42,823 nt of DNA from a virus, in IMG/VR virus record IMGVR_UViG_3300032241_000902, positions 1-42,823 of that record. One strand, written 5' to 3'. The notes under the pieces were generated by a model. The model saw only the letters and a program-made list of their open reading frames with translations. It was not told the DNA's origin and searched no databases. The stretch's first letter is position 1. Each line of letters opens with the position of its first letter. Position numbers and translations under genes: made by a program. Positions 1 to 39,503 of this stretch are shown here, one piece after another.

Positions 1-358
1 CCAATACCCTGCGTGTAAATTGTTCTCGTGCCTCTATGTATGACGTTTCAGCTTTAGATTTACAATAAAATAATATCTGTCGATGAAAGTTTTCTTGACC
101 TAACTGCGCAATATCTTTGAGTAGTTCATCTGAAGATCCATAATATTCTCTCCAGTCACTGTCAATTTTACTGCGGATTTTCTTTTTTTTCTTAGTGCCG
201 TTTTTTAATTTTACTGTTCGATAAGTAGTTTTAGAAAATTTTGCTAGTTTTTTGCCTATGTACATACGCCCTGTAACTGTATTTGTTATAAGATAAACAA
301 ACCCAATACAATCCTCGGGCAATTCTTCTATTAATTGATTTTTATAGTACCAAGACAT
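1..358 (-). CDS. GIY-YIG nuclease-like protein (3' part outside window)
   Basis: The N-terminal 119 residues are visible; the gene continues past the window start. The protein shows a GIY-YIG-type core: FVY at residues 20-22 and YIG at 33-35, within GFVYLITN...RMYIGKK. A lysine-rich stretch, the motif WREYYGSS, and a later segment reading AETSYIEAREQF follow, where a catalytic Glu would be expected. GIY-YIG domains cut DNA and in T4-like phages are found in Seg-type homing endonucleases and in stand-alone nucleases. It starts 3 bases after the stop of the upstream 92-residue gene, so it is the last visible member of the gp55-gp47-gp46 operon. Whether it is a mobile homing enzyme or a domesticated nuclease cannot be told from this part. 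The fold call is fairly secure; the role is open. Confidence 0.7.
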   Translation of the reverse strand, partial: MSWYYKNQLIEELPEDCIGFVYLITNTVTGRMYIGKKLAKFSKTTYRTVKLKNGTKKKKKIRSKIDSDWREYYGSSDELLKDIAQLGQENFHRQILFYCKSKAETSYIEAREQFTRRVL

Positions 359-361
359 ACA

Positions 362-640
362 CTAATTAGTGTCTGTCGAGTCCTTAACTTGTGCCTTTTG
401 GTTTGCCTTACGTGCTCGTTTTGCCTGATCTAGATGTACACGATATTGCTGTACATGTTCTCTACGTTCTCTTGCTATGATACGAATCTGCGCTAACCAG
501 TAGCGCATATTTTCTCCTGCTCTGCGTGTGCCTTTGCTTTGCCAATCTTGATTTGCCTTAAAGTATTCGCGAAAAGCTGCCATGAGTCGTTCATGCGATT
601 CCTCATTTTGATAAGCAACTGGTTCAACGTGTTTACTCAT
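362..640 (-). CDS. small conserved helical protein of unknown function
   Basis: A 92-residue, highly charged protein with no signal peptide or membrane segment. Most of it (about residues 12-80) looks like long amphipathic helices rich in Arg, Lys, Glu and Gln, for example around SHERLMAAFREYFKAN and IIARERREHVQQYRVHL. From memory, similar small proteins occur beside gp46 in other marine T4-like phages, but I know no function for them. Its start overlaps the end of gp46 by 8 bases, and the nuclease-like gene follows 3 bases after its stop, so it is co-translated with the recombination genes. A DNA- or protein-binding accessory role in recombination or replication would fit the charge and position, but that is inference only. 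Confidence 0.75.
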   Translation of the reverse strand: MSKHVEPVAYQNEESHERLMAAFREYFKANQDWQSKGTRRAGENMRYWLAQIRIIARERREHVQQYRVHLDQAKRARKANQKAQVKDSTDTN

Positions 641-2411
641 TGATTTCTAAATCGTTTGCATAGGATGTATAACCGTTTTCCTTAACAACCTTGAGCACAT
701 TGTTTACACGACCGATCAGTTCGTCCTTGTGCGATATTAAGAAAATATTCTTCTTACGTTCGCGACTCATCTTTTTAAGTACAGCCAGTGCACCTTCTAC
801 TCCAGCCGCATCCAATCCGTTGTCAATCAGCTCGTCTACAAACAATAGATTAATACCTTGATATAAACTTTCCCACACATCTCGGAAACTCCACGACAAA
901 CTTAAGATCAAACGATTACGTTCACCGCGACTCAAGTTGTCAAAGTCCAAATCTTGACCTAACTGTGTAATTTCTACACTTAGATCATTTTGGAATAGTA
1001 CAGTATGTGGTAACCCCATACGGTCTAGATAGTAAGTAAGCCTATTATTCAGGTATGCTAGATTCTGATCAATAATCTTCTTACGGATAAAACTATCCTT
1101 ACTGGTTAACAGTTTTAGTAGAAACTCTTGATGTTCTTTTAAACTGTTAAGATTATTAACATGGTCCCAAGAGATTTCCTGTATGGCTGTGTCCATGAGT
1201 TCATCGATTTGTTCTTGGTAAGTGTCGGTTTCGTGTGACTTGGCTACGAGTTGATTCTCTAGAGTCTTAAGATTGTTCTGATGCTTAAGAGCTTCCTCAA
1301 CAGTGTCATAGTAAGTATTGGGTCGAGTATTTAACTCGCCCAGAGCAGTGATTTCTGTTTGTATTTTATCTAGGTCCAGTGTGACCTTATCATAATATCG
1401 TTGTGCTTCCTGCAGGTGCTCGGTGGCCTTAGCGGTCATTTGCTCATGTTTATGATCATGTAGCTCTTGTTCACAAGCGTGACAGGTCTTACTTGCCAAT
1501 AGGCCGAGCTCACGTTCATACTTCGTAACGCTTCGCTCCGCTTGCGCTATCGCGCTTTCTAATGTAGCACGTTCCTTTTCCAGGCTTTTCAGCTTCGCTG
1601 ATTTTTCTAGATAAGCCTTAAGATCACTATGTTTGATTAATTCAGTTTCGATATCCACACTTTCAAGTTCTACAATGGCTCTACCGATCTTTTCTAGTTC
1701 AGAGCCATGCTGATTACGCCAAGCACTTTGTCTTGTTAAAAGATTGTCAATGCTTTTCTGTATATTTTCGTTGCTTTTCTTGATAGCTTCGATATTAGCA
1801 GTTTCTTGTAGAATAGAATCTTTAGTTTGTCTTACTAATTCTTTTAGTGCTTCTGCTTTTTCACTTAGGATTGTAATACCTAACAACTGTTCAATAATGA
1901 CCCTTTGATCGTTAGCCCGCATGCTAAGGAACGGCTCTGTATAAGTGTTTAAGGCAACAATATGCTTGAACATATCATGGCTCATGCCTAGCAAATCGTC
2001 TAGATCTTTTTGTGTTTCTCTAACATCGCCTTGTGCTTCGTCAGTTTCTTCTTCCTCTTGTGCAATGTCATTGACAAAAAACTGTAGTACATTAGGCTTG
2101 CGGCCACGTTCGATACGATAATCAACTCCGTCTTTTTCAAAAGCCAACGTAACCAACATGTTCTTATTGTTGGTTTTATTAATAAGATTATCTTTTTTAA
2201 TGTTAGTCAGCGCATTGCCAAACAAGGCATAGCTAAGTGCATTAACAATAGTAGTCTTACCGGTACCATTACGACTTCCGCTGTCGTCACCGCCTTGATC
2301 TAAGTTCTCACCTAGTACAAGTGTTAGGTTTTCTTGTGCAAAATTTACAGCCTGGGTTTGATTACCCACACTCATAAAATTTTTAACAGTCAGTTCCTTT
2401 AGTTTAATCAT
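633..2411 (-). CDS. 46: gp46-like recombination endonuclease subunit (SbcC/Rad50-type ATPase)
   Basis: A 592-residue SMC-like ATPase, the large subunit of the phage gp46/gp47 complex (Rad50/SbcC family) that resects DNA ends for recombination-dependent replication and host DNA breakdown. Visible in order: Walker A ending NGTGKTT at residues 48-54, preceded by the GENLDQGGDDSG insertion seen in many phage gp46 proteins; long coiled-coil arms; a zinc-hook CHAC at about residues 309-312 between the arms; ABC signature LSRGERNR near 493; Walker B LLFVDELID near 523; and a histidine switch segment LISHKDEL close to the C-terminus. The first Walker A position is Ser rather than Gly. The start codon overlaps the stop of gp47 by 4 bases (ATGA), which implies translational coupling and matched amounts of the two partners. 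Length matches T4 gp46 (about 560). Confidence 0.95.
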   Translation of the reverse strand: MIKLKELTVKNFMSVGNQTQAVNFAQENLTLVLGENLDQGGDDSGSRNGTGKTTIVNALSYALFGNALTNIKKDNLINKTNNKNMLVTLAFEKDGVDYRIERGRKPNVLQFFVNDIAQEEEETDEAQGDVRETQKDLDDLLGMSHDMFKHIVALNTYTEPFLSMRANDQRVIIEQLLGITILSEKAEALKELVRQTKDSILQETANIEAIKKSNENIQKSIDNLLTRQSAWRNQHGSELEKIGRAIVELESVDIETELIKHSDLKAYLEKSAKLKSLEKERATLESAIAQAERSVTKYERELGLLASKTCHACEQELHDHKHEQMTAKATEHLQEAQRYYDKVTLDLDKIQTEITALGELNTRPNTYYDTVEEALKHQNNLKTLENQLVAKSHETDTYQEQIDELMDTAIQEISWDHVNNLNSLKEHQEFLLKLLTSKDSFIRKKIIDQNLAYLNNRLTYYLDRMGLPHTVLFQNDLSVEITQLGQDLDFDNLSRGERNRLILSLSWSFRDVWESLYQGINLLFVDELIDNGLDAAGVEGALAVLKKMSRERKKNIFLISHKDELIGRVNNVLKVVKENGYTSYANDLEINE

Positions 2412-3421
2412 AGGCTATTATAAATGGATAACAAGATATTCTTGTCGTAGGTTTCGCTTTCAATATTGATAATCTGACTAGATACAATCTGATCTACACT
2501 TTCAAACGCCTGTATATCAATGTTTGTGTTAATTTCAACATCTTTCTTCTCGGCAATCAAGGTTAGTTCACGTATATCATAGTCACCAATAAACTTTTCT
2601 TTGATAAAACTAGCTTCTTCGTAAGTAATATCTATGTCTAGTGTAACACGAAGATGTTGCTTGGGCAAGATAATCGAGTCTGCTTCGTCAATAAGCTGAC
2701 TCAATTTAACTGTACGAAAGGTAGGTTGCCCTGGCCAACTAAAGTATTCTGGTGTACCTCCCCACTCTAACACCATCATTCCGCGCTCATCGTCCCATGC
2801 ATCTGCATAGTTATGAGGAAATGCATTGCCAATATAGATCATATTCTGCTGTTGTTGGCGTTTGTGGAAATGTCCGCTGAATCCTAACTCGTAATTTTTG
2901 AAACTACTAAGTTGAATTTCACCATGATCGGGCATCTGTACCATGGCATTCATAAAGAAACTGGGCAATTCAAAGTGACCAAAGATGTATTTGCCACCTT
3001 TCTTGCCTACAGCTCGCCACTCTTCTCCTACAAGCCATGGACAGAGTGTGACATCTCCAATGGTAGTCGGTTCGTGGACAACTGTAATCCCGGGAATGTA
3101 TTTGCCAAACTCAACACTATGGATGTCTCGTTTGTCTTTATAGTAAAGATCGTGATTGCCAGGAAAAAAGAAAAAATTATCAAACGCTCTTCCCAGCTTT
3201 TCCAAAGCCCTAAGGCTATAATCCATAGTAGTAATGTTGAGACTATTGCGATTGTGGTGCCAATCGCCCATAAAAATTCCTGTATCACAGCCTTGCTCCT
3301 TGGCTTTATCAATGTACCAATCGACAAAATCTTCGCAATCTTGATTGTGTATTGACGAATTACTCTTAAGACCGAAGTGTATATCGGTAAAACAAGCAAC
3401 TTTTTTAAATAAATTTGTCAT
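2408..3421 (-). CDS. 47: gp47-like recombination endonuclease subunit (SbcD/Mre11-type)
   Basis: A 337-residue calcineurin-type metallophosphoesterase, the nuclease partner of gp46. All metal-binding phosphoesterase motifs are present: DIH at residues 13-15, GDWHH at 52-56, GNHD at 88-91, the HFELP histidine at 149, and GHFH at 183-186. In this family these residues hold two metal ions (typically Mn) that drive 3'-5' exonuclease and endonuclease activity on DNA ends opened by the ATPase. The C-terminal 100 residues should bind the gp46 coiled-coil base. Its start overlaps the gp55 stop by 4 bases and its stop overlaps the gp46 start by 4 bases. The length is as in T4 gp47 (339). I see no defects in the active site. 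Confidence 0.95.
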   Translation of the reverse strand: MTNLFKKVACFTDIHFGLKSNSSIHNQDCEDFVDWYIDKAKEQGCDTGIFMGDWHHNRNSLNITTMDYSLRALEKLGRAFDNFFFFPGNHDLYYKDKRDIHSVEFGKYIPGITVVHEPTTIGDVTLCPWLVGEEWRAVGKKGGKYIFGHFELPSFFMNAMVQMPDHGEIQLSSFKNYELGFSGHFHKRQQQQNMIYIGNAFPHNYADAWDDERGMMVLEWGGTPEYFSWPGQPTFRTVKLSQLIDEADSIILPKQHLRVTLDIDITYEEASFIKEKFIGDYDIRELTLIAEKKDVEINTNIDIQAFESVDQIVSSQIINIESETYDKNILLSIYNSL

Positions 3422-4251
3422 TCTTGGCTTTCATCAAATCGTTTAATAGCAGCAGCATGCTCTCCTGAACCAGTTCTGCTGTAGCTAGGATTCATTCCGT
3501 TCATTTCTAGAATGTCATCACGGATGTTTTGATTACGTTTTTCGGTATTGATAACACGAACAAAGCTATTAGTTACGGCTGCTGTGAAATAAGCAAACGG
3601 ATTATCTGATTTGCTCTCATCAAATTGCAAGCCAATCTGTGTTAATTGTAAAATAGCCATACCTTTCATTTCATCGTTATAGGTATAACCCCGAACATTG
3701 CCACGTGTAGCATAGCGTTCGCACAACTTGATCATCATCTTAGCCAAGGTATTTGTAATTTGTCCAGCATCTTTATCAAAGTGACCTTTTTCTAAGTCGC
3801 CCTTCCAATGACTTTTGCCTACGCAGATAAGTTTTTTTGGATCCTCATCATCAAATTTCCAGTGCTGGAACGGAGGAAAGTTTACTTTGTCTCTATGATC
3901 GGCAAGACTTTTAGGATTTTTCTTACGAGTACTATTCAAAGGGATATGATCAAAGCTCATAATTCTAAAAACAACATCTGTTTTACCTATTTTTTTGTAG
4001 TCAACTTCGCAATCTGCTTGTTTAATTTTCTCTCCCAGCGCCTTACGTCTTTGATATTCAGCATCTCCTAGACGTTTAGCTTGATTACGTTTAGCTTCTG
4101 CTATGCTTCTAATATTAATTTTATCTACACTAGGCAGAATGAGATCATATTGATGATATTCAGGTTTGATAAAACTGCAATACGAGCTTTTTGACTTATG
4201 GATCTCAGCTAACATATCTTTGTTATTTAGGTAATTTACTTTTGCGTTCAT
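3418..4251 (-). CDS. 55: late-transcription sigma factor, gp55-like
   Basis: A 277-residue homologue of T4 gp55, which replaces sigma70 on host RNA polymerase and recognises TATAAATA late promoters. Two blocks align by eye with T4 gp55: the N-terminus KVNYLNNKDML (T4 KYNYVNNKELL), and the sigma region 2-like core at about residues 160-250, including GYTYNDEMKGMAILQL, LQFDESKSDNPFAYFTA and FVRVINTEKRNQNIRDD. Between them lies about 120 residues absent from T4 gp55 (185 residues), containing basic stretches and VNFPPFQHWKFDDEDP. The T4 C-terminal clamp-binding peptide (SLDFLYE) is not recognisable; the protein ends AAIKRFDESQE. It is first in the minus operon, behind a sigma70-type promoter, with an AAAGGA ribosome site 11 bases before the start. 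Confidence 0.92.
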   Translation of the reverse strand: MNAKVNYLNNKDMLAEIHKSKSSYCSFIKPEYHQYDLILPSVDKINIRSIAEAKRNQAKRLGDAEYQRRKALGEKIKQADCEVDYKKIGKTDVVFRIMSFDHIPLNSTRKKNPKSLADHRDKVNFPPFQHWKFDDEDPKKLICVGKSHWKGDLEKGHFDKDAGQITNTLAKMMIKLCERYATRGNVRGYTYNDEMKGMAILQLTQIGLQFDESKSDNPFAYFTAAVTNSFVRVINTEKRNQNIRDDILEMNGMNPSYSRTGSGEHAAAIKRFDESQE

Positions 4252-4276
4252 CCTGTTCTCAGTCCTTTAATGTCTA

Positions 4277-4305
4277 ATTATAAACTACGCACATTAAAAA
4301 GTCAA
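4277..4305 (-). promoter_or_regulatory. sigma70-type early promoter for the gp55-gp47-gp46 operon
   Basis: Read on the minus strand, TTGACT (4305-4300) and TATAAT (4282-4277) are separated by exactly 17 bases. This matches the bacterial sigma70 consensus at 11 of 12 positions. Predicted transcription starts near 4270, giving a leader of about 19 bases that opens almost directly with the AAAGGA ribosome site. The -35 hexamer shares base 4305 with the oppositely oriented late element at 4305-4312. Confidence 0.75.
4283..4294 (+). promoter_or_regulatory. 12-base late-promoter upstream element, copy 1
   Basis: AACTACGCACAT is repeated exactly at 10336-10347, and with 9 of 12 matches at 28987-28998. 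In each case it ends exactly 12 bases before the TAAATA of a late promoter, so it would sit near -37 to -26. Here it also lies inside the spacer of the opposing sigma70 promoter. Function unknown. Confidence 0.5.
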
Positions 4306-4312
4306 CTAAATA
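4305..4312 (+). promoter_or_regulatory. late promoter (gp55-type) for the tail/baseplate run
   Basis: ACTAAATA, a variant of the T4 late element TATAAATA, lies 23 bases before the ATG at 4336. The ribosome site is AGGAA at 4325-4329. The predicted transcript starts near 4318. The 12-base element AACTACGCACAT (4283-4294) precedes TAAATA by 12 bases, as it does before gp6. Confidence 0.6.
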
Positions 4313-4335
4313 TTGTATCAATTTAGGAATTTAAT

Positions 4336-5388
4336 ATGGCATTTGGTGATAGCTTACTTCAAACCGTTTCAAACGTTAACGGCCTTGCCAACGGCATTTC
4401 TGCTGGAGTTAACCTTGCCAACAATTTAAGTTCTGCTTTGAGCACAGGGCTTAATATTGCTGGCGGAGTATCTAGTGCGCTACGCAGCATCAACTTACCT
4501 GCCGGTGGAGATCCAACTGGCGGCCTACTTGGATCTGCTTCAGCTACATTTGGTGGAGATGCTAGTCCTGCTGATTGGCGAGTTCGATTAAGCATGGCTA
4601 ATGCTCCTAGTTTTCAAAATAGTTCTGTGCTAGCACCATTAAAACAAGCTGGCGGATTAGTATTTCCATATACACCCTCAATTAATATTGCTAGCAGCGC
4701 CAAATATAGCCAAATACAAACAACGCATACCAATTATACATTTCAAGCATTTCAGCATAGCGAGCCGGGAACTATTACAATTACAGCCCCAATGAACGTA
4801 GAAGATTCAACACAAGGGTTATACTGGATTGCTGCCGTGCATTATTTAAGAAGTTTGACTAAAATGTTCTCAGGATCTGATGCATTGGCCGGTAATCCTC
4901 CTCCAGTTATATTTTTAAACGGTTACGGAAATTATGTTTTTAAAAATATCCCTGTAGTAGTAACCCAGTTTCAAACTACATTGTCTAATGATTGCGATTA
5001 TATTGCAGTTGGTGCACCAGCTAGCGATGCAGGAAGTAGTAGTCCTTTAGGCGATATTGCATCTGCAGCCAGTGCTATTGGTGGCATAGCAGGCATTGCT
5101 GGTGCTATACCAGGACTTGGAAATCTTGCCGGACAAGTAGGTAGTATTGCCGGTGCTGTAGGAAATCTTGCCGGTGCTGCAAATGCTGTTGGCAATTTGT
5201 TAGGCGGTGCCGGCGGCGGCGCAGTTGGTCTTGGTGGCGCTGTAACCGGTGATGTAAGTCATGTGCCAACTAAAAGCGAATTTACAGTTACTCTGCAACC
5301 GGTATATAGTAGAAATAGTTCTAGATATTTCAGTTTAGATCAATTCGTATCAGGTGGTTATTTGAATAATCAATTTGGATATATCTAA
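4336..5388 (+). CDS. tail-tube-like/baseplate structural protein (gp48/gp54 candidate)
   Basis: A 350-residue virion protein, first gene of the late run. Residues 80-226 and 309-350 look like one beta-rich domain of the tail-tube type, with PYTPSINI, TITAPMN, the block NPPPVIFLNGYG and then NIPVVVTQFQTTL, closed by PTKSEFTVTLQPVYSR and FSLDQFVSGGY. From memory, these phrases recur in baseplate/tube proteins of marine T4-like phages. Candidates are the tube-initiating proteins gp54 or gp48, but I cannot assign which. Two regions are odd: residues 5-70 and an internal segment at 229-307 are almost entirely Gly, Ala, Ser, Leu and Ile, like hydrophobic helices, and the second interrupts the beta domain. 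It is followed 2 bases later by gp53. Confidence 0.6.
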   Translation: MAFGDSLLQTVSNVNGLANGISAGVNLANNLSSALSTGLNIAGGVSSALRSINLPAGGDPTGGLLGSASATFGGDASPADWRVRLSMANAPSFQNSSVLAPLKQAGGLVFPYTPSINIASSAKYSQIQTTHTNYTFQAFQHSEPGTITITAPMNVEDSTQGLYWIAAVHYLRSLTKMFSGSDALAGNPPPVIFLNGYGNYVFKNIPVVVTQFQTTLSNDCDYIAVGAPASDAGSSSPLGDIASAASAIGGIAGIAGAIPGLGNLAGQVGSIAGAVGNLAGAANAVGNLLGGAGGGAVGLGGAVTGDVSHVPTKSEFTVTLQPVYSRNSSRYFSLDQFVSGGYLNNQFGYI

Positions 5389-5390
5389 TT

Positions 5391-5690
5391 ATGGCAACTT
5401 ATAAAAATACAAGTCCCTGGTATACAACACAAGTAAAAAATAATTATCTTGATGTACTAACAATCAGACCAGTTAGTGCTGAACCTGATGATTTTTATTA
5501 TACTATAGAAGCACAATATGCGTATAGACCTGATCTATTAGCTTTTGATTTATACGGCACAACTCAATTATGGTGGGTATTTGCACAACGTAATATGAAC
5601 GTTATAGAAGATCCTATATTAGATTTTGTTCCGGGTACGGGGATTTATATTTGTAAAAAAGCTAGTTTGACTAAAGTATTAGGATTGTAA
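5391..5690 (+). CDS. 53: baseplate wedge protein gp53
   Basis: A 99-residue protein of the phage gp53 family, a component of the baseplate wedge. In T4, gp53 joins neighbouring wedges around the hub. The family's hallmark stretch is clear: YAYRPDLLAFDLYGTTQLWW (residues 44-62), then VFAQRNMNVIEDPILDFVPG and a final IYICKK. It is about half the length of T4 gp53 (196 residues), as in many marine T4-like phages, so only the core fold is present. It sits between a tube-like protein and the hub protein, with gaps of 2 and 1 bases, as expected for a co-translated baseplate cluster. Confidence 0.9.
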   Translation: MATYKNTSPWYTTQVKNNYLDVLTIRPVSAEPDDFYYTIEAQYAYRPDLLAFDLYGTTQLWWVFAQRNMNVIEDPILDFVPGTGIYICKKASLTKVLGL

Positions 5691-5691
5691 T

Positions 5692-7992
5692 ATGGGTTTA
5701 TTTGATAACCTTGGTGCAACTGTAACTTCTAATATCTCCGGAGCAATCAATGCTGTGTCCACGGGAATAGCATCGGGGCTATCCAGTGTTACAAATGCAT
5801 TGTCTGGAGTCACATCGTCATTAACAGGCGGTCTATCGGGCATAAGTGGTCAAGCTGCAATCAGCAGTGCACTGTCTGGTGTTGCTAGTTCACTAGGAAT
5901 TGCCCCCGGAAGTACTTTTCCATTGCCAAATCCTTTATTCAAGTATGCAACATATAATTACATTATTGGATTAAGTTCAATTCCTGATTCTTATCTTAGC
6001 AATCCAGATAGTACCTATAGAGCAGGAAAATACGGCGATATTATTGCAAAGTCAGCTAGTATAGATCCTGATAATAGGATTAAAATTCCTCAAGGCTCAT
6101 TTGAATTTTATATAGAAGATCTTAAAATTGAAAGCAATATTGGTCACATGAGCGGAACTAATACACATGTTACTAATCTTTCTTTTAAAGTAATTGAACC
6201 TTATAGTATGGGTCTATTTTATACTGCTCTTCAGCAAGCAGCAGATAAAAATTCGCACACTAACTGGAATGTAGCACCTTTTCTTTTAACTATAAATTTC
6301 AAAGGTAATACAGAAACTGGAATAATGGAAGACATTCCTGGAACCGATAGGCAATTTCCTATACAAATTACTGGTATGGATATGACAGTTAATCAAGAAG
6401 GTGCTGTTTATAATTGTACAGGGATAGGATATAGCACTGTTGCTCTTCAAAATAGCAACAAAAACTTTTTAAGTGATATTTCAGTTAGGGGAAAATCAGT
6501 AGGGGAAATATTACAGTATGGTGAAAAGAGCCTACAAACTATTTTAAATCAAAAATTACAAGAAGTTGCTGATACTAACGGTATTGAAGTTGCCGATAGA
6601 ATCTTGATATTATTTCCACAAAACCAAGCTTCAAATTCTACTAATCAAGCAGCAACCGGCGATAGCGAAACATCTCCAGGTTCGGCTACGGTAGACCCAA
6701 CGCCATTGCCGTCAGATTATCTAGCATCATTAAATGTAACAAACAAAGCAGTCACAGATAAACTTAGTATTCTAGTGCAAGACCCGTCATCTATGAACAA
6801 TATTGGTCAAGCTAAGTTAGGATTTGATGAAATAAGAAAAGCAGATGCTCCTATGGCTGGCGCAAGAGAATCTTATGACGAGAAAAAGAAAATCAATGTT
6901 AGAAGTAAAAATGGTGTAGATCCTCAAGTGACCGAGATGAAATTCAGTCAAGATACTGATATTTTAAATGCAATCAATCAAGTTATTCTAGCTAGTCAAT
7001 TTGTTATAGAATCTTTAGACCCAGGCAAAATTACACCAGAAGGATACAAAGATTGGTGGCATATAGATACACAGGTATATCAGTCAGGTGTTGAAAATAA
7101 AGCAACTGGTCTTAAACCTAGATTATTAGTATATAGAGTCCTGTCTTATCACGTACATCAAAGTTCAGGACAAACAGCTCCTAGCACTAAAACAGTTGGT
7201 TTAGATGGCCCATTACAAGATCAAGTGGTTAAAGAATATAACTATATCTATACAGGAAAAAATGTAGATGTATTGAAATTTGACATAAAGTATACTAATA
7301 ATTTTATAGATACTTTGCCAGCAGACGGTACATCGGGCACGCAGGATTATAAAACAGCTGCCGATCAAGGTGGTGCAAAAGCTTCTAATCCAGTAACTCA
7401 AGAAGAAGCTCTTAATAATACTGGTAATTCGCCTCCAATAATTCCAGGTACTTCTCCTACAGCCGTAGTTTATACAGGTACTAAAGCAAAAACAGATAAA
7501 CTTGGTGGAGGCGGAGCTGAACTTCCGGCTACTCGCGCTGCTCGTGCGTTTTTTGATAGAGCAATGAAAGGAACTGATATGGCAGATTTGTCAATGGACA
7601 TTATTGGTGATCCATATTATCTTGCTTCCTCGGGCGTAGGAAATTATACAGCCCAGCCTCTTACAGAAAATCTCAATACTGATGGAAGTGTAAATTATCT
7701 ATCAGGCGAAGTACATGTTAGTGTTAATTTTAGAACACCTATTGATATTAAAAATAATGGATTATATAATTTTGATAATCCGTTACAATCTATTGCTATG
7801 ATAAGCGGATTGTATCGTGTTAATCAAGTTACACATACATTTTTAAAAAATGAATTTAAACAAACTTTAATAGGCAGTCGTCTGAGATTGCAAGAAATTC
7901 TCGGTGCTGGTTCTCCAGCTGCTGGTATTTCTGCTGACAATACCAAAGTCAATGCAAAAGACGATAACACACAAGAAGAATCTGGAACATAA
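5692..7992 (+). CDS. baseplate hub protein, gp27-like
   Basis: A 766-residue structural protein placed directly before the gp5-like spike. In T4-type tails the hub trimer (gp27) clasps gp5 and continues the tail tube. Residues 1-75 are a low-complexity Gly/Ala/Ser/Val stretch. A structured part then begins at FPLPNPLFKYATYNY (76-90). The middle (about 300-345) is a Ser/Thr/Pro-rich linker. The C-terminal portion carries features typical of hub proteins: IIGDPYYLASSGVGNY and the closing IAMISGLYRVNQVTHTF with KQTLIGSRLRLQEIL. It is about twice the size of T4 gp27 (391). The call rests on these C-terminal motifs plus position; the middle section is unassigned. Confidence 0.7.
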   Translation: MGLFDNLGATVTSNISGAINAVSTGIASGLSSVTNALSGVTSSLTGGLSGISGQAAISSALSGVASSLGIAPGSTFPLPNPLFKYATYNYIIGLSSIPDSYLSNPDSTYRAGKYGDIIAKSASIDPDNRIKIPQGSFEFYIEDLKIESNIGHMSGTNTHVTNLSFKVIEPYSMGLFYTALQQAADKNSHTNWNVAPFLLTINFKGNTETGIMEDIPGTDRQFPIQITGMDMTVNQEGAVYNCTGIGYSTVALQNSNKNFLSDISVRGKSVGEILQYGEKSLQTILNQKLQEVADTNGIEVADRILILFPQNQASNSTNQAATGDSETSPGSATVDPTPLPSDYLASLNVTNKAVTDKLSILVQDPSSMNNIGQAKLGFDEIRKADAPMAGARESYDEKKKINVRSKNGVDPQVTEMKFSQDTDILNAINQVILASQFVIESLDPGKITPEGYKDWWHIDTQVYQSGVENKATGLKPRLLVYRVLSYHVHQSSGQTAPSTKTVGLDGPLQDQVVKEYNYIYTGKNVDVLKFDIKYTNNFIDTLPADGTSGTQDYKTAADQGGAKASNPVTQEEALNNTGNSPPIIPGTSPTAVVYTGTKAKTDKLGGGGAELPATRAARAFFDRAMKGTDMADLSMDIIGDPYYLASSGVGNYTAQPLTENLNTDGSVNYLSGEVHVSVNFRTPIDIKNNGLYNFDNPLQSIAMISGLYRVNQVTHTFLKNEFKQTLIGSRLRLQEILGAGSPAAGISADNTKVNAKDDNTQEESGT

Positions 7993-7994
7993 CA

Positions 7995-9896
7995 ATGGCA
8001 GACCGAGACTTTGACGGACCAACAGATAGTACTATAGCCCAGCCAGAGAGCAAACCTGGACCTTTTAGAGCAAAGGTGGTTGCTCACGGAGATTCTAGCT
8101 ACGGCGGAAAGTTGAAAGTTCAACTATTGCATGATGTTGGAAATAGCGACCGTGAAGGAGAAACACACGATGTTATGTACATGAGTCCGTTTTTTGGCAG
8201 GACAGATGTAAAACATAACGGTAAAGATAATGACTATAACAATACACAAAAAAGTTATGGTTTCTGGGCGGTGCCTCCAGATGTAGGATCTACTGTAGTT
8301 GTTATTTTTATTGAAGGTAATCCTAAACGCGGATATTGGTTTGGTTGTATACAAGATGAAGATGTTAATTTTATGCTTCCAGGGTATGCAGCTACAGAAA
8401 ATAATGTAGAAGGCGGCCTAGATACTCCTTACGGACACGCAGCAAGGGTACCCGTTGCTGAATATAATAAAAATTATCCTAGCAACAACTCTACTGGTGA
8501 CAAGACAAAGATTAAAAAACCAGCCCATCCGTTTGCACAACAACTAGCCGACCAAGGTTTGTTATTAGATGATACAAGGGGCATAACAACTAGTAGTGCT
8601 AGGCGTGAATTTCCTAGTATGGTATTTGGTATTAGTACACCTGGTCCTCTTGACAAGCGATCTGGTGCTCAAACAGGTGCTTACGGAACATCGGATCATC
8701 AGATAAGAAATGCGCCAGTGAGTAGATTAGGTGGTAGTAGTTTTGTTATGGACGACGGAGATGATCATTACTTAAGAAAATCTAGTCCTAGTAAAAGCGG
8801 CCCTGACTATGCAGCAGTAGAAGAAAACGAAACTGGGGGCGATGTGACTCGTCCTCATAATGAACTAATTCGTCTGCGCACTCGTACAGGCCATCAAATT
8901 TTATTGCATAATAGTGAAGATTTAATTTATATTACAAACAGCAGAGGCACTGCTTGGATAGAATTAACTAGTGATGGTAAAATTGATGTGTATGCACAAG
9001 ATAGTATTAGTATGCATACTGAACAAGATTTTAATTTTTATGCCGGCCGTGATTTTAATTTCGAAGCAGGCCGTAATTTCAATACTAAAGTTACTGGAGA
9101 ACATCATACACATGTTCTTAAAGATCAAATTTTAATTGTAGACGGCAACCAAACAATAAAAATTGCTAAAGATGTAAACAAAACTTATGAACAAAAATAT
9201 ACACACACAGTACAACAATCTGTAAACAAGGTTTATAATGATACTTTCTTACATCATGTTGTAGGGCAAGTAGATTGGACATTTGATGCTAGCCTTAATT
9301 GGAATACTGGAGTTGCCGGCGGTGGTGATGTTAATGCTAGTTTTGGTGGAAATGTGACTACAAAAGTTGCTGGTACAGTTAATGAAACAATTGTTGGAAG
9401 TGTAATAAAAACTATTCAAGGATCGTTCGATCTCAATACATCTGGACATAACAATTTTACTGCCGGCGCTACAACAAATATTAAGAGTAGTGGCGATCAC
9501 ATAGAAACAGCCGCTAATATTCATATGAACGGACCAGCAGCTACTACTGCAGCTATAGCTAGTGCTCCAGGCACGCCAACAGCTGCCATAGATGCCGAAT
9601 TGCCTAAAGTTTTACAAACTAGTACATTGCCGGGGCCTCCTAACGGTGCCGAATTAGTACAGAGTATTATGCGGCGTGTTCCTACAACAGAACCTTATCC
9701 TCAGCATGAAAATTTAGATCCTGAAAAATATAAACCGAGTAAGACGGATAGAGATGCAGACACGCGGTATGAAGGAAATAGTACTAGTATGGCTGATGCT
9801 GCTACATACTGGAAAAAATACACAACTAACCCAGACACATTTACTAGGAATCCTCCAGTTGAAGATTCTTACCAACAAAACAATGAGGAGGTATAA
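7995..9896 (+). CDS. 5: baseplate central spike protein, gp5/VgrG-like, no lysozyme domain
   Basis: A 633-residue spike protein. Residues 15-130 form an OB-fold as in gp5/VgrG: PFRAKVVAHGDSSYGGKLKV, then YMSPFFGRTD, VPPDVGSTVVVIF and KRGYWFGCIQDE. Residues 285-510 are repetitive beta-strands of the gp5C triple-helix type (IRLRTRTGHQILLHNSEDL, then DFNFYAGRDFNFEAGRNF and similar). The C-terminal 120 residues carry RRVPTTEPYPQHENLDPEKY, which I recall from other marine T4-like spikes. T4 gp5 has a T4-type lysozyme between OB-fold and helix; here residues 135-285 are unrelated and Gly/Pro-rich, so cell-wall cutting must come from elsewhere. Gene context hub-gp5-gp25 supports the call. Confidence 0.88.
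   Translation: MADRDFDGPTDSTIAQPESKPGPFRAKVVAHGDSSYGGKLKVQLLHDVGNSDREGETHDVMYMSPFFGRTDVKHNGKDNDYNNTQKSYGFWAVPPDVGSTVVVIFIEGNPKRGYWFGCIQDEDVNFMLPGYAATENNVEGGLDTPYGHAARVPVAEYNKNYPSNNSTGDKTKIKKPAHPFAQQLADQGLLLDDTRGITTSSARREFPSMVFGISTPGPLDKRSGAQTGAYGTSDHQIRNAPVSRLGGSSFVMDDGDDHYLRKSSPSKSGPDYAAVEENETGGDVTRPHNELIRLRTRTGHQILLHNSEDLIYITNSRGTAWIELTSDGKIDVYAQDSISMHTEQDFNFYAGRDFNFEAGRNFNTKVTGEHHTHVLKDQILIVDGNQTIKIAKDVNKTYEQKYTHTVQQSVNKVYNDTFLHHVVGQVDWTFDASLNWNTGVAGGGDVNASFGGNVTTKVAGTVNETIVGSVIKTIQGSFDLNTSGHNNFTAGATTNIKSSGDHIETAANIHMNGPAATTAAIASAPGTPTAAIDAELPKVLQTSTLPGPPNGAELVQSIMRRVPTTEPYPQHENLDPEKYKPSKTDRDADTRYEGNSTSMADAATYWKKYTTNPDTFTRNPPVEDSYQQNNEEV
9885..9892 (+). promoter_or_regulatory. strong ribosome binding site for gp25
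   Basis: GAGGAGGT lies at the very end of the gp5 gene, 6 bases before the gp25 ATG. It is the longest match to the anti-Shine-Dalgarno sequence I noticed in the window. It suggests gp25 is made at a higher rate than the spike protein before it. Confidence 0.7.
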
Positions 9897-9898
9897 TT

Positions 9899-10333
9899 AT
9901 GTCTAGCCTATTTACAAAAACACAAGTATCGTCTGCGCCTGTGGCTAGCCATCCAGGTTCTAGGAGATATAGAGGGTTTAGCACAGTAAGTACACATACT
10001 GAAAATTATAAATTATACGATTTTGAATTGATTAAACAAGATTTGTTGAATAATTTTTATGTTCGTCAGGGCGAAAGACTAATGAATCCTACATTTGGAA
10101 CAATCATATGGGACGTAATATTTGAACCATTAACTGACGAATTAAAAAATGCAGTACTACAAAATGTAAATCAAATTTTTAACAGTGATCCTAGGATTCG
10201 CGTAGGTAGTATTGTTATTACTCCGTACGAGACCGGTTTAGAAATACAATGTGAATTAATATATGTGCTGTATAATATACAACAAAAATTGCAAATGCAA
10301 TTTGATCAAGCCAATGGATTTAGCCTACAGTAA
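9899..10333 (+). CDS. 25: baseplate wedge protein gp25
   Basis: A 144-residue member of the GPW/gp25 family, the most conserved wedge component in contractile tails. In T4 it forms the (gp6)2-gp25-gp53 core and nucleates sheath assembly. The family core is obvious: DFELIKQDLLNNFYVRQGER (41-60), then MNPTFGTIIWDVIFEPLTDE, LQNVNQIFNSDPRI and a C-terminal strand ending IYVLYNIQQKLQMQFD. The N-terminal 38 residues are a Ser-rich, probably flexible extension beyond the T4 start (T4 gp25 is 132 residues). A very strong ribosome site precedes it. The next gene, gp6, begins 50 bases later behind its own late promoter. Confidence 0.93.
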   Translation: MSSLFTKTQVSSAPVASHPGSRRYRGFSTVSTHTENYKLYDFELIKQDLLNNFYVRQGERLMNPTFGTIIWDVIFEPLTDELKNAVLQNVNQIFNSDPRIRVGSIVITPYETGLEIQCELIYVLYNIQQKLQMQFDQANGFSLQ

Positions 10334-10335
10334 TT

Positions 10336-10347
10336 AACTACGCACAT
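10336..10347 (+). promoter_or_regulatory. 12-base late-promoter upstream element, copy 2
   Basis: AACTACGCACAT is identical to 4283-4294 and, as there, ends exactly 12 bases before TAAATA. The intervening bases also share TCAA just before the promoter. It lies in a 50-base gap between gp25 and gp6 that has no gene on the other strand. Confidence 0.55.
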
Positions 10348-10357
10348 AATTTTATTC

Positions 10358-10365
10358 AATAAATA
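10358..10365 (+). promoter_or_regulatory. late promoter for gp6 and the giant baseplate gene
   Basis: AATAAATA matches the T4 late consensus TATAAATA at 7 of 8 positions and lies 18 bases before the gp6 start. The ribosome site AGGA at 10374-10377 is 6 bases before the ATG. No other promoter is evident before the 15 kb gene downstream, so this element probably serves both. Confidence 0.65.
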
Positions 10366-10383
10366 CACTTATTAGGATAAATC

Positions 10384-13300
10384 ATGAGCTCAACGGATAG
10401 ACAAAATAATCTTTTAATTGCCGAAAACTGGCAAAAAATTTATCAGTCTTTTAAAAACGCAAACTTTCAAAGCTACGATTTTGATAATCTGCGTCGTACG
10501 ATGATTGATTATATCCGTACAAACTTCCCAGAAGACTTTAACGACTACATCGAATCAAGCGAGTATCTTGCTCTAATTGATCTTATTGCCTATATTGGCC
10601 AAAGTATTGCATTTCGCGTAGACCTAAATGCACGTGAAAACTTTTTAGAACTAGCAGAACGCCGTGACAGCATTTTACGACTAGCACGTATGATCGGCTA
10701 CAACGCTAGTAGAAATATTGCTGCCAAAGGCTTGTTAAAATTTAACACAGTTAGCACAAGCGAAAATGTAATTGATAGCAACGGACGAAATTTATCTGGA
10801 CAGTATATAACTTGGAATGACCCTAGCAATGCTAACTGGCACGATCAGTTTATCAAAGTTATTAACGCTGCACTACCTGCAACTAGTCAATTTGGTAATC
10901 CTATAGACAGTGCAACAATTTACGGAGTCCCGACAGCCCAATATAGATTTAATTCTTCTAATACTAACGTTCCAATTTATAATTTTAATAAAACTGTTTC
11001 TGGACGTAGTATGAATTTTGAAATTACTAGTACTACTTTCAGCGGGAAAACGTATATCTACGAAGAAGCTCCTAAAATTGGCAATCAAATGGCTTGTGTT
11101 TATAGTGACGATGGCTTCGGAGCAAGTAGTCCAGGTACTGGCTTCTTTTTTAATTTTACACAAGGTACAATGAATACCGGCGCTTTTACAGTTAGTCAGC
11201 CAACTAGTAATCAGCAGATAGATATTGCTACACAAAATATTAATAATACCGATGTATGGTTATACAGTTTAGATCAAAGTACTGGTTTAGAAAACACATT
11301 ATGGACCCAAGTTCCTGCTACAACTGGAAATAATGTAATTTACAATAGTCTAAGTGCAAAAATTAAAAATATTTATAGTGTAGTTACACGAGCAAGTGAT
11401 GCTATTAGTCTAAGTTTTAGTGACGGAACATTTGGTAATTTACCTTTGGGTAATTTTAGAACTTACTATAGAGTAAGCAATGGTTTTAATTACACTATTA
11501 ATCCTGCAGACATTGTTAACATCGTTGTATCTATTCCTTATACAAGTGCAAAAAATACAGCAGAACTTTTAACAATTAGTCTTAGCCTTGCTACTAGCGT
11601 GACAAACGCTGCCACATCTGAAACAAATGCCAGCGTTAAAACTAATGCTCCACAGACATATTATACACAAAATCGTATGATAACTGGCGAGGATTATAAT
11701 ATTAGTCCCCTTAGTGCTAATTTAAATGTAGCCAAAGTGCAAGCTGTTAATAGAACCAGTAGCGGAATAAGTCGGTATTTTGACCTAACAGATCCAACTG
11801 GAAAATACAGTAAAACAACTTTGTTTGCAGACGATGGTGTCATATACAACGAAAATTATAATTCAACCGCAAATTTTACCTATGTCACACAAACAGACAT
11901 TCAAGGTGTTATCTATAACAAAATTTACGATATCTTAAATACTCCTAATTTGAGAAATTTTTACTATTCAAATTATTTAGATTTCTTAAACGTTAGTCTT
12001 AATATTCAATGGAATGCTGTTACTAATGATAGCAACACTTCAAGTGGATATATCAGTCTTGTTTCTTTACTTTCTGGTAATAACAATGCACCTTTGCAAG
12101 TTGGGTCATTTACCGCAACAGATTTAAAATATCTCACAGTAGGATCTATAATAAAATTTACAGCTCCTGCTGGTTATTATTTCAATACTATTACAAACAA
12201 ACTAGTAGCAGGAACAGCTACAGTTCCAAATTCGTCAAATTACTTATGGGCTGAAGTTGTTAGTGTAGCAGACGATGGTACAGCCAATAATACAGGAGTA
12301 TTATCTACAACAACACAAGGTCCGATTGTATTGAATAAATCGATTCCTTCGCTTGCTGTTGCTACACAAATTATTCCTCAGTTTGTAACAACAATTAGTC
12401 CTACTGTCATAACAACTATGATAGATTTAATATTTGCTAATGACAGCTTTGGTTTGAGATATGATGCTACTACACAAAGTTGGCAAATTATTTTTGCAAA
12501 TAATTTAAATGTTACAAATCCTTTTAGCCTTGGTAATCAGGGCGATACTAGTAATCTTCAATTAGATTCTAGTTGGATGTTATTGTTTACAACAAACACC
12601 GTTCAGTATACCGTGACAACACGTAATCTACGATATATATTTGAAAGTGATAATCAGGTAACTTTTTACTTTGACAGTAACACCACTATCTATGATACTA
12701 TTTCTAGTAATACAGTTTCAGATACTATTAAAGTTTTAAGCATTAATTCGCAACCTGATCTTACTACTCCTTTTACACAAGATTTAACTTGGCAAATTGT
12801 AAGCGAGTACACTGGTCAAGATGGATATATTGATCCTAAAAAACTTGTTATAACTTTTGCTGATTCCAACGGAAACGGAATTGTAGATAATCCGCAATTG
12901 TTTTTAGATATTGTTGCACCATCAACTAATCCATTAACAAAATATATTGTGGAACAGAAATACGCTATTTCCGAAGGACAAGAAGATTACAAATATGTTG
13001 CTAATGATCCAAGTTCAGGCCCAGTTTTAATATTTCCGACCCAGGCTAGTGCAGGAGCTTTAACACAATATGCAGATGGTACTTATTTCTACTTTGTAGA
13101 TACAGCAACTGTGTTTAAATTGACACTATCTACCGGACAGTTAAGTCCTAGTTTAGATTATGAAGTGTATATTGGCCGACCAGAATTAAAATTTCAGTAT
13201 GTACATAGTGCTGATTATAATAGTAGAATTGACCCAGGTGCAAGTAATATCATAGACATTTATGTACTAACAACAGATTATGATTCTGCTTTTAGACAAT

Positions 13301-13866
13301 GGGTGACCAACGGTGCTACAGGGACAACACCATTGCCTCCAAGCAGTGATCAGTTAAACACATTGTTAAGTCCAAACTTAAATCTAATAAAATCTATCAG
13401 CGATGAAATAATTTATCACCCTGTTAGTTATACATTGTTGTTTGGAGCACAAGCCGATCCTAGTCTTCAAGCTACTTTTAACGCAATGATTAACCCATCT
13501 AGTGCTGTATCATCTGCAGATGTTCAAGCAAGAATTTTACAAGCAATTAATACATTCTTTGCTTTAGAAAATTGGAACTTTGGAGATACATTTTACTTTA
13601 CTGAATTAAGCACTTATGTAATGAACAAACTAGCACCTGATTTAATTTCGTTTGTAATTGTTCCAAGCCAACCAGGTTTATATTTCGGCAATTTATTTGA
13701 AATACAGTGTGCAACTGATAATATATTCTTAAGTTGTGCTACGACAGCTAATATTGTTATTGTTACCGGACTCACCGGAACTAATTTAAAAACAATCAGC
13801 TCTACACCTACAAATAGTCTTACCAGTAATCAGTCAGTGACTACTGCTCCAAACACAGGAAAATAA
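10384..13866 (+). CDS. 6: baseplate wedge protein gp6 (enlarged)
   Basis: A 1160-residue homologue of T4 gp6 (660 residues), the wedge subunit that dimerises to form the inner ring of the baseplate. The N-terminus is the most recognisable part: NWQKIYQSFKNANFQSYDFD, then YIRTNFPEDFNDYIESSEY and ENFLELAERRDSILRLARMIGY (about residues 84-105). The C-terminus, near residue 1053, reads INTFFALENWNFGDTFYFTE, the baseplate-J-like helical end that contacts neighbours. Between these the protein is mainly Ser/Thr/Asn-rich beta sequence, and most of the extra 500 residues relative to T4 lie there. It is followed after 4 bases by the giant gene, whose ribosome site lies within the gp6 coding end. Confidence 0.9.
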   Translation: MSSTDRQNNLLIAENWQKIYQSFKNANFQSYDFDNLRRTMIDYIRTNFPEDFNDYIESSEYLALIDLIAYIGQSIAFRVDLNARENFLELAERRDSILRLARMIGYNASRNIAAKGLLKFNTVSTSENVIDSNGRNLSGQYITWNDPSNANWHDQFIKVINAALPATSQFGNPIDSATIYGVPTAQYRFNSSNTNVPIYNFNKTVSGRSMNFEITSTTFSGKTYIYEEAPKIGNQMACVYSDDGFGASSPGTGFFFNFTQGTMNTGAFTVSQPTSNQQIDIATQNINNTDVWLYSLDQSTGLENTLWTQVPATTGNNVIYNSLSAKIKNIYSVVTRASDAISLSFSDGTFGNLPLGNFRTYYRVSNGFNYTINPADIVNIVVSIPYTSAKNTAELLTISLSLATSVTNAATSETNASVKTNAPQTYYTQNRMITGEDYNISPLSANLNVAKVQAVNRTSSGISRYFDLTDPTGKYSKTTLFADDGVIYNENYNSTANFTYVTQTDIQGVIYNKIYDILNTPNLRNFYYSNYLDFLNVSLNIQWNAVTNDSNTSSGYISLVSLLSGNNNAPLQVGSFTATDLKYLTVGSIIKFTAPAGYYFNTITNKLVAGTATVPNSSNYLWAEVVSVADDGTANNTGVLSTTTQGPIVLNKSIPSLAVATQIIPQFVTTISPTVITTMIDLIFANDSFGLRYDATTQSWQIIFANNLNVTNPFSLGNQGDTSNLQLDSSWMLLFTTNTVQYTVTTRNLRYIFESDNQVTFYFDSNTTIYDTISSNTVSDTIKVLSINSQPDLTTPFTQDLTWQIVSEYTGQDGYIDPKKLVITFADSNGNGIVDNPQLFLDIVAPSTNPLTKYIVEQKYAISEGQEDYKYVANDPSSGPVLIFPTQASAGALTQYADGTYFYFVDTATVFKLTLSTGQLSPSLDYEVYIGRPELKFQYVHSADYNSRIDPGASNIIDIYVLTTDYDSAFRQWVTNGATGTTPLPPSSDQLNTLLSPNLNLIKSISDEIIYHPVSYTLLFGAQADPSLQATFNAMINPSSAVSSADVQARILQAINTFFALENWNFGDTFYFTELSTYVMNKLAPDLISFVIVPSQPGLYFGNLFEIQCATDNIFLSCATTANIVIVTGLTGTNLKTISSTPTNSLTSNQSVTTAPNTGK

Positions 13867-28986: not shown

Positions 28987-28998
28987 AAATACTCAGAT
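28987..28998 (+). promoter_or_regulatory. 12-base late-promoter upstream element, degenerate copy 3
   Basis: AAATACTCAGAT matches AACTACGCACAT at 9 of 12 positions and ends exactly 12 bases before TAAATA (29011-29016). The spacing is the same as for the two exact copies, which is why I list it despite the mismatches. Confidence 0.4.
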
Positions 28999-29008
28999 AA
29001 TACTACCA

Positions 29009-29016
29009 GATAAATA
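29009..29016 (+). promoter_or_regulatory. late promoter before the gp8-position gene
   Basis: GATAAATA, 7 of 8 matches to TATAAATA, sits 20 bases before the ATG at 29037, in the 55-base gap after the giant gene. The ribosome site is AGAGAG at about 29025-29030. It probably transcribes the small structural gene and the first two fibre genes, which follow with almost no gaps. Confidence 0.6.
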
Positions 29017-29036: not shown

Positions 29037-29648
29037 ATGCAGACTAACGACGCAACTGGAATTCACATAGAAGGTCATATTAAGATCTTTGATCCTGTTT
29101 CTAAAGAGATATACATTAATAAACGTAATGCGATTCATTACGAAAATATGAGTATTGCACTTGCTAGCTCGCTCGCCAATGTAACTACCGGCGGGTTTGT
29201 CTATCAAATGGATTTTGGCAACGGCGGCACAGCTATTGATCCTACTGGAATTATTACCTATTTGACTCCAAATACTAGCGGCACCAATGCTAGTTTATAT
29301 AATAAAACTTACAGTAAAATAGTTGATCCTACTAGCGGAACCAATACTGATCCTACTAGAAATTTTACAGAAATTAGACACGTTACTGGCACAAATTATA
29401 CTGATGTATTTGTTACCTGCTTGCTAGACTACGGTGAACCTAACGGCCAATCTGCATTTGATACAGTTAATGATACAAATAGTACATATACATTTGACGA
29501 GTTAGGATTACGATCATATAGTACAACTGGTGATAGTTTATTATTAACGCACGTAGTTTTCCATCCTGTACTAAAAAGTCTAAATCGTCTAGTACAGATA
29601 GATTATACTGTGCGTATTCAAAGCCTAACAGGCTTAGTTTCAGTATAA
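29037..29648 (+). CDS. small virion structural protein at the gp8 position
   Basis: A 203-residue beta-rich protein following the giant wedge gene, where T4 has gp8. I do not see convincing gp8 sequence features (T4 gp8 is 334 residues), so the name is withheld. Recognisable phrases are GIHIEGHIKIFDPVSKEIYI near the start, YQMDFGNGGTAID, FDELGLRSYSTTGD, and the closing LNRLVQIDYTVRIQSLTG. From memory, similar proteins of marine T4-like phages are annotated as structural. The C-terminal strand resembles ends of phage tail and baseplate proteins. A late promoter precedes it, and the first fibre gene starts 10 bases after its stop, so a role at the wedge-fibre interface is a reasonable guess. 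Confidence 0.65.
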   Translation: MQTNDATGIHIEGHIKIFDPVSKEIYINKRNAIHYENMSIALASSLANVTTGGFVYQMDFGNGGTAIDPTGIITYLTPNTSGTNASLYNKTYSKIVDPTSGTNTDPTRNFTEIRHVTGTNYTDVFVTCLLDYGEPNGQSAFDTVNDTNSTYTFDELGLRSYSTTGDSLLLTHVVFHPVLKSLNRLVQIDYTVRIQSLTGLVSV

Positions 29649-33833: not shown

Positions 33834-33841
33834 TATAAATA
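33834..33841 (+). promoter_or_regulatory. late promoter, perfect TATAAATA, before fibre paralogue C
   Basis: TATAAATA is an exact T4 late consensus, 22 bases before the ATG at 33864. The ribosome site AAGGAACGAG is at about 33850-33859. The 49-base intergenic gap holds nothing else that I recognise. The 12-base upstream element is absent here. Confidence 0.75.
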
Positions 33842-35381: not shown

Positions 35382-35389
35382 AATAAATA
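35382..35389 (+). promoter_or_regulatory. late promoter before appendage protein 1
   Basis: AATAAATA begins immediately at the fibre C stop codon and lies 22 bases before the ATG at 35412. It matches TATAAATA at 7 of 8. The surrounding 30 bases are almost all A and T. Confidence 0.55.
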
Positions 35390-36390: not shown

Positions 36391-36398
36391 AATAAATA
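36391..36398 (+). promoter_or_regulatory. late promoter before the Ig-array appendage protein
   Basis: AATAAATA lies 23 bases before the ATG at 36422, with AAAGGTAG ribosome sequence at about 36411-36418. A TATAAT hexamer (36404-36409) follows it, but its -35 partner is poor, so I favour the late promoter. Confidence 0.55.
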
Positions 36399-39406: not shown

Positions 39407-39420
39407 TTCACTTTGAAATG

Positions 39421-39442
39421 TTACACAATACACTTAGTGTAA
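39421..39442 (+). terminator. weak hairpin, possible terminator after the fibre genes
   Basis: TACAC-TTA-GTGTA (39429-39441) can fold, or alternatively TTACAC with GTGTAA (39421-39442). It is followed by ATTTATTAT rather than a clean T-run. It is the only hairpin between the last late gene and the downstream early-type promoter. The call is weak. Confidence 0.3.
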
Positions 39443-39474
39443 TTTATTATCATAAAAATAATCATCACTGGCCA

Positions 39475-39503
39475 TTGACAAGATAATTAAACTAGTATAT
39501 TAT
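39475..39503 (+). promoter_or_regulatory. sigma70-type promoter for the glycosyltransferase operon
   Basis: TTGACA (39475-39480, perfect -35) and TATTAT (39498-39503, 5 of 6 for -10) are separated by 17 bases. The predicted start is near 39510, followed by the ribosome site GGAG at 39513-39516 and the ATG at 39523. There is no TATAAATA here, unlike the fibre genes, so this operon should be read by host sigma70 polymerase early in infection. Confidence 0.75.

Follow-up and report, generated by a model that had tools for sequence, protein, structure and literature searches.

The gene for the late sigma factor gp55 and a run of tail genes diverge from a gap of 84 bases (4252-4335) in the window, by which we mean the whole stretch of 42,823 nucleotides of viral DNA analyzed here (IMG/VR record IMGVR_UViG_3300032241_000902). 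An initial annotation placed in this gap both a promoter for gp55 and, on the opposite strand, a late promoter that gp55 itself would activate. The locus thus raises the question of whether both promoters are real, how far they are interlocked and whether the arrangement could let gp55 limit its own synthesis.

Two opposing promoters in the gap upstream of gp55

PHROGs matches bear out the minus-strand genes gp55, gp47 and gp46 of the initial annotation, and its placing of tail genes on the plus-strand side also holds, as we find virion and baseplate genes there (Table 1). After the first virion gene, the plus-strand order by PHROGs is baseplate wedge, virion, hub/lysozyme and two more baseplate wedge genes; the names gp53, gp5, gp25 and gp6 are assigned to plus-strand genes by analogy with T4. 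Immediately before promoter C, a single ORF of 5036 aa occupies 13871-28981 amid the tail genes. At the other end of the locus, relatives carry 3' of gp46 a hairpin (for example, AGAAGAACGTAAGTTCTTCT) followed immediately by TAAATA and a new gene (L039, about 9983-10034, and some 15 other loci, by eye), an arrangement that resembles a terminator and a late promoter back to back.

Residues 148-239 of gp55 match T4 gp55 in the cryo-EM complex (chain 7d7c_F; phmmer 1.3e-5). We built an AlphaFold2 model of the whole protein from 27 sequences (mean pLDDT 85), and its similarity to 7d7c_F is evident with Foldseek (E 0.02, probability 1.00) and VIA (Z 12.5, rmsd 3.4, 120 aligned). This sigma region-2 homology places the protein in the gp55 late sigma factor family. 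Ahead of the T4-like part come about 147 residues, which are partly conserved in the alignment and confidently modeled as part of the whole protein. The C-terminal tail looks polar in the alignment, by eye, a hydrophobic C-terminal clamp-binding motif being a trait of the family.

Re-reading of the sequence reproduced to the base the promoter positions of the initial annotation, including base 4305, which is common to the minus-strand -35 and the plus-strand ACTAAATA. The gp55 promoter, with a spacer of 17 bases, scores 11 of 12 against the sigma70 consensus (TTGACA/16-18/TATAAT), as a sigma70-type promoter should, and this is the joint top score among 47 promoter-like sites at positions 1-12000 of the window. 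The same scan yields no excess over shuffles (47 versus 43.4 sites), and thus proves nothing by itself. On the plus strand, ACTAAATA is a TATA-like 8-bp element about one helical turn before its predicted start, as in T4-type late promoters (consensus TATAAATA), and its first two bases differ from the TA of that consensus. The predicted starts, at 4270 and 4318, are 48 bp apart, which fits within one polymerase footprint. A run of 20 near-consensus sigma70 promoters was seen at 27-39 kb of another record (G001), several of which share TTTTGG and some AAGTGCGCTATAAT; this stretch may represent the early region of the group.

Plus-strand TAAATA occurs in 15 copies in the window, six of which touch intergenic bases (binomial P ~6e-9, given an intergenic total of 448 of 42,823 bases that depends on our own gene list), and none of the 19 minus-strand copies does so. 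Counted on both strands, TAAATA is about three-fold rarer in the window than in dinucleotide shuffles (34 versus 96) and TATAAATA is five-fold rarer (2 versus 10), a scarcity that may reflect selection against stray late promoters, in counts that include any effect of coding constraint.

Scanning IMG/VR with gp55, we retained the best 80 loci, at 83-90% identity. A divergent structural gene was seen in 74 of them, and the other six hold just 22-269 upstream bases. All 76 loci whose upstream sequence reaches 130 bases have TAAATA at the expected place; the other four of the 80 were too short to count. With rows anchored on TAAATA and the window included, the early -35 (GTCAA on the other strand) is in register exactly in 73 of 77 rows and with at most one mismatch in 76, and the early -10 (ATTATA on the other strand) exactly in 74 and with at most one mismatch in all 77. 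The -35 is damaged in locus L073, and L050 has an odd gp55 start. The initial annotation had expected both elements to be conserved when the gap is aligned in relatives, and they are.

Mean pairwise identity, computed on 65 distinct combinations of gap and gp55 core, is 98.5% for the early -10 and 96.0% for the early -35, and 88.5% and 73.4% for the two parts of a box in the spacer that is described below. For comparison, four-fold sites in gp55 reach 47.8%, and the flanking columns of the gap 43% and 60%; the 100% identity of TAAATA is uninformative here because TAAATA is the alignment anchor. Length changes, by eye, are confined to both leaders, with none between the promoters. To judge from these alignments, the gap is under selection, and they support the conclusion that both promoters are real and that their geometry is fixed in close relatives. 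It is this conservation and register, and not the promoter scan, that we count as real evidence for the two promoters.

Table 1. Features of the window that bear on the two promoters (coordinates in the window)
Feature	Coordinates	Strand	Evidence and remarks
gp55, late sigma factor, 277 aa	3418..4251	-	phrog_12791 7.7e-73, phrog_234 3.5e-26
gp47, SbcD-like nuclease subunit	2408..3421	-	phrog_100 7.8e-65; overlaps gp55 by 4 bases; presumably same operon
gp46, SbcC-like subunit	633..2411	-	phrog_77 6.7e-101; overlaps gp47 by 4 bases; presumably same operon
-10 hexamer TATAAT, gp55 promoter	4277..4282	-	sequence; exact in 74/77 rows; predicted start ~4270
-35 hexamer TTGACT, gp55 sigma70-type promoter	4300..4305	-	sequence; GTCAA in register in 73/77 rows
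Late upstream box AACTACGCACATTAA	4283..4297	+	late -35 to -21; inside gp55 promoter spacer; recurs at promoters B, C and D
Late -10 element ACTAAATA	4305..4312	+	TAAATA core in 76/76 relatives with enough sequence; predicted start ~4318
Virion structural gene behind late promoter	4336..5388	+	phrog_12050 1e-41; first in run of baseplate and virion genes
Promoter B, before gp6-like gene	10336..10365	+	box 10336-10350, TAAATA 10360-10365; TAAATA in 75/75 loci
gp6-like baseplate wedge gene	10384..13866	+	phrog_10646 4.5e-294
Promoter C, before phrog_11259 gene	28987..29016	+	box AAATACTCAGATAAT 28987-29001, TAAATA 29011-29016; TAAATA in 80/80 loci
Gene behind promoter C, function unknown, between virion genes	29037..29648	+	phrog_11259
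Intergenic late-type TAAATA	33836..33841	+	box not seen (by eye)
Intergenic late-type TAAATA	35384..35389	+	box not seen (by eye)
Intergenic late-type TAAATA	36393..36398	+	box not seen (by eye)

The upstream box of the late promoter

Conservation in the spacer of the gp55 promoter goes beyond what a sigma70 spacer requires. The conserved sequence in this spacer, hereafter the box, adjoins the gp55 -10 and had gone undescribed in the initial annotation. CTACGCAC recurs 22 bases before a second TAAATA of the window (10338 and 10360), ahead of the gp6-like gene. We compiled four sets of upstream sequences: A, the gp55 gap; B, the gp6-like gene; C, the gene at 29037; and D, the tail tube gene. 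Set B excludes five of 80 gp25 loci, probably for a short flank in most cases. The box consensus, compiled by eye, is AAAC-TA(C)GCA[CG][AT]T[AT]AT at late -35 to -21.

The box prediction carries over from one promoter to another. After merging of identical 56-base rows, 58, 40 and 63 distinct rows remained for sets A, B and C, with the window included. A matrix made from set A finds the box best at offset zero in 33/40 rows of B and 47/63 of C; the corresponding values are 55/58 (A) and 44/63 (C) for the set B matrix, and 56/58 (A) and 33/40 (B) for the set C matrix. Mean cross-set scores are far above all 500 shuffles, which were single-base rather than dinucleotide shuffles. In set C, roughly one distinct row in four has no box at that place.

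A pattern search in 25 contigs found the box in 32 places, versus two for the reversed pattern; the pattern was built from known sites, and most matches are theirs. The leftover matches were taken as five pieces, three of which lie before a gene called tail tube by PHROGs, while one yielded no ORF and one did not fit the pattern applied. TAAATA is present in 34 of 43 distinct upstreams of tail tube homologues, the nine without it belonging to homologues at 29-41% identity. The box is best at offset 0 (10 rows) or +1 (18 rows) in 28 of the 31 distinct tail tube rows tested (27 of 31 with a longer matrix) and best elsewhere in three. Across the four promoters its register agrees within one base, and its orientation and distance are asymmetric and near-fixed.

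In G026, a 345-kb relative, we scored all 73 intergenic TAAATA sites that lie 3-80 bases before an ORF, with ORFs called crudely both here and for the gaps considered below (ATG starts, at least 60 aa). The four top scores (13.5, 13.4, 10.0 and 9.2), all at offset 0, belong to the promoters of the gp55 gap, of gp6, of set C and of the tail tube gene, and the fifth is 3.7; the tail tube set was not used in building the matrix, and the G026 set C site was among its rows. The other 69 of the 73 sites are without the box, and the sheath, baseplate hub and head-tail adaptor promoters of G026 do not stand out in this scoring. We rejected the box as a general late element, given that just four sites stand out. 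Its distribution in the aligned and scored sequences indicates that it marks a small group of virion-gene promoters. Two other box-like sequences were noted: a reverse-oriented one at about 7990-8025 of L252 (345-kb relative), just upstream of TAAATA before a 598-aa phrog_4474 protein, and a partly box-like near-palindrome, AAACTAGTATATTATACTAGCTA, in a 116-base gap without TAAATA at 39407-39522 of the window.

Several other roles for the box were considered. As part of the sigma70 promoter it was rejected on three grounds: the other TTGAC-N17-19-TATAAT sites listed for 17 related contigs are without it (by eye); promoters B, C and D carry it, and the early hexamers are not conserved there in aligned relatives; and a distant clade keeps it by the late -10, with the early promoter elsewhere. 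An action in RNA was rejected because the box is upstream of both predicted starts at the gp55 gap and comes after an apparent terminator (by eye) at the tail tube gene. A MotA-like site was set aside because too little DNA separates the box from the gp55 -10; the MotA box is described at -30 of middle promoters (PMC2988021).

Since the box accompanies the late -10 both in the distant clade and at the three other promoters (B, C and D), we assign it to the late promoter. On this assignment, the late promoter at the gp55 gap is bipartite and the gp55 promoter sits inside it. The overlap is by the same reading larger than the initial annotation described, as the conserved part of the spacer is then an element of the late promoter.

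The gap in distant jumbo phages

PA5oct gp55 recruited a distant clade of 48 loci, in which late sites were found in 45 of 47. The gaps are mostly longer there. Of these 45 loci, 29 have TTGAC at a distance of 37 nt from TAAATA and seven have no TTGAC. Thus, the shared base of the initial annotation can be read at 4305 in the window but is not essential. The box is altered in this clade, and its best offset is +1 for 19 of the 38 distinct rows and 0 for three (shuffled maximum, three at any offset). The early promoter does not include it, as it has the early -35 on one side and the late -10 on the other. Five of 41 distinct gaps have no TAAATA, in our view through the choice of an inner gp55 start, and four of 41 have no sigma70 match of 9.

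We also examined 14 named jumbo phage records, among which PA5oct and MIJ3 have almost the same gap sequence. Every one of the 14 has gp55 and its neighbor in divergent orientation, with TAAATA in the gap on the neighbor's side. The neighbor is annotated as structural in nine (PA5oct, MIJ3, RaK2, 121Q, Hallingskeid, XaC1, GAP32, CBB and BF; in Hallingskeid with a small ORF in between), hypothetical in Munch, Vibrio 2.275.O and SCTP-2, and a nucleotidyltransferase in Phosso and Atu_ph07. The best sigma70-like match reaches 10/12 in six records, 9 in seven and 8 in one, so that a sigma70 promoter is uncertain in several of them. In RaK2, 121Q, Munch, Hallingskeid, GAP32, CBB and BF, TATAAT was found by hand 28-30 nt from TAAATA (25 nt in the window), within longer gaps of 115-131; these phages are related and do not represent seven independent cases. 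The one cyanophage examined has no such gp55 layout. Overall, the records support the view that a divergent gp55 with a late element on its neighbor's side has been kept in distant jumbo phages, usually together with a sigma70-like match.

G026, PA5oct and the window together have 38 divergent gaps, six of which pair a late element with an opposite-strand sigma70 match of at least 10. The gp55 gap is the only one to do so in the window. It is also the only divergent gap of G026 found with an overlapping pair, a second gap having the two elements about 220 bases apart. PA5oct has three such gaps, one of which is that of gp55.

Possible regulation at the gap and comparison with known systems

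We propose that host polymerase with its main sigma factor would transcribe gp55, gp47 and gp46 leftward from TTGACT/TATAAT. The gp55 protein, probably with a clamp system as in T4, would then reprogram polymerase to start rightward at ACTAAATA and transcribe the baseplate genes. The late promoter used would be bipartite, combining its -10 element with the box at -35 to -21 that a small set of virion-gene promoters employs. Because the box takes up the stretch between the gp55 -35 and -10, both polymerases need the same DNA and should not bind together, and occupancy of the late promoter should cap further gp55 synthesis. The virus may therefore stop making its own late regulator as tail building starts. 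Promoter use, mutual exclusion of the polymerases and the fall in gp55 synthesis are what we infer from the conserved sequences and spacing of the promoters and the box. The gp55 promoter is putatively of the early class, and may instead be a middle promoter; its CBB counterpart was placed in a second class.

We consider interleaved promoters, with gp55-polymerase at the late promoter limiting gp55 synthesis, to be the best explanation of the gap, at a probability of roughly 0.55. It is favored by the maintenance of the overlap with fixed hexamer register and by the sharing of the box with late promoters that have no conserved early hexamers. Against it, the 37-nt distance in the distant clade weakens the overlap, the best sigma70-like match is at most 9/12 in eight of the 14 named records, interlocked spacing would forbid insertions and deletions even without regulation, and something else may already have silenced the early promoters at that stage. 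Also, T4 gp55-polymerase is described as binding a consensus late promoter weakly (PMC2988020), so that occupancy of the late promoter may be too low for occlusion.

Alternatively, the overlap may reflect nothing but compactness: a head-to-head gap of 84 bases leaves no room for separate promoters, and the overlap would then be purposeless, with gp55 transcription ended earlier by other means. Such economy would suit a window with just 448 intergenic bases, and the loosening of the overlap in the longer gaps of the distant clade fits it as well. However, the 115-131 gaps of RaK2 and its six relatives listed above retain TATAAT at 28-30 nt, the 37-nt distance is itself fixed in most distant-clade loci, and the divergent gaps of G026 hold no other such overlap; we see compactness as a possible but rather doubtful account. 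That AT-rich DNA merely looks promoter-like, by chance or as an alignment artefact, would agree with a promoter scan no richer than its shuffles, but is barely credible in view of the conservation, the fixed register and the transfer of the box prediction between unrelated promoters.

The selectivity of the box could also point to a third factor, a phage protein that binds it, aids gp55-polymerase at the four box promoters and blocks the gp55 promoter between its -10 and -35. The large drop to the fifth score in G026 is in line with this, as are the asymmetry of the box, its near-fixed distance and orientation, and its position next to the gp55 -10. The candidate binding protein is hypothetical, however, and polymerase, the N-terminal extra part of gp55 or a gp33-like factor could equally read the box; moreover, repression through the box cannot be general, because the distant clade has the box at a place that is not part of the gp55 promoter. 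We therefore regard this explanation as improbable. Returning to the interleaved promoters, a broader proposal can be made with some hesitation: these jumbo phages might possess a subclass of T4-type late promoters (tail tube, gp6, gp53-neighbor and a further gene of the virion module) that carry a second element at -35 to -21. Its reader could be a regulator, a gp33-like protein or the additional N-terminal region of gp55. The element would at the same time form part of the gp55 promoter, and turning tail genes on and gp55 off would then be one event.

Interlocking of a late sigma factor's own promoter with one that the factor activates would be a simple and testable form of feedback. In T4, the shut-off of early transcription is described as independent of AsiA and incompletely explained (PMC2988021), and a local feedback by gp55 would be of use where the shut-off is only partly explained. 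Because the box singles out four promoters, it suggests that the timing or scale of late genes can be set separately, and it also offers a sequence signature for spotting such promoters in uncultured jumbo phages. Within the main texts searched, mostly of papers outside subscription, we recognized no report of the promoter overlap or of the box, and a term search found no promoter terms in the MIJ3 paper as available (PMC6892783). What appears to be new is that some T4-like late promoters form a sub-group with an upstream element, and that this element is nested with the late sigma factor's own promoter.

As far as the cited accounts describe the gp55/gp33/gp45 late system of T4, the present system resembles it in that TAAATA stands at about -11 to -6, the gp55 homologue has an identical sigma region-2 fold and structural genes lie downstream (PMC2988020, PMC7892883). 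T4 late promoters are stated there to have neither -35 conservation nor an upstream element, whereas four promoters here carry a conserved box at -35 to -21 and depart from that rule; gp55 also differs from its T4 counterpart in the length that precedes the T4-like part. Late positions -13/-12 read A(A/C) here, nearer to the a/gC reported for Aeh1. The late promoter is predicted to work like that of T4, yet by the stated rule it would not be a standard member.

CBB and GAP32 have a predicted sigma70-like promoter before gp55 and an ATAAATA late motif before structural genes (PMC5259590), together with a divergent gp55 gap, as here. In CBB, ATAAATA was reported in 35 places and the authors detected no gp33 or gp45 homologue; the gp55 promoter was placed in a predicted second class with a TGAAACG -35, and the account, supplements aside, mentions neither the overlap nor an upstream late box. 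The functional analogue is the switch at the A2c, A2b and A3 promoters of phi29, where early promoters and a late one occupy a single short region and are switched jointly from early to late. There, as described, the proteins p4 and p6 carry out the switch (PMC3100819), whereas here the polymerase of the late sigma factor would itself do so, repressing the gene for that sigma factor.
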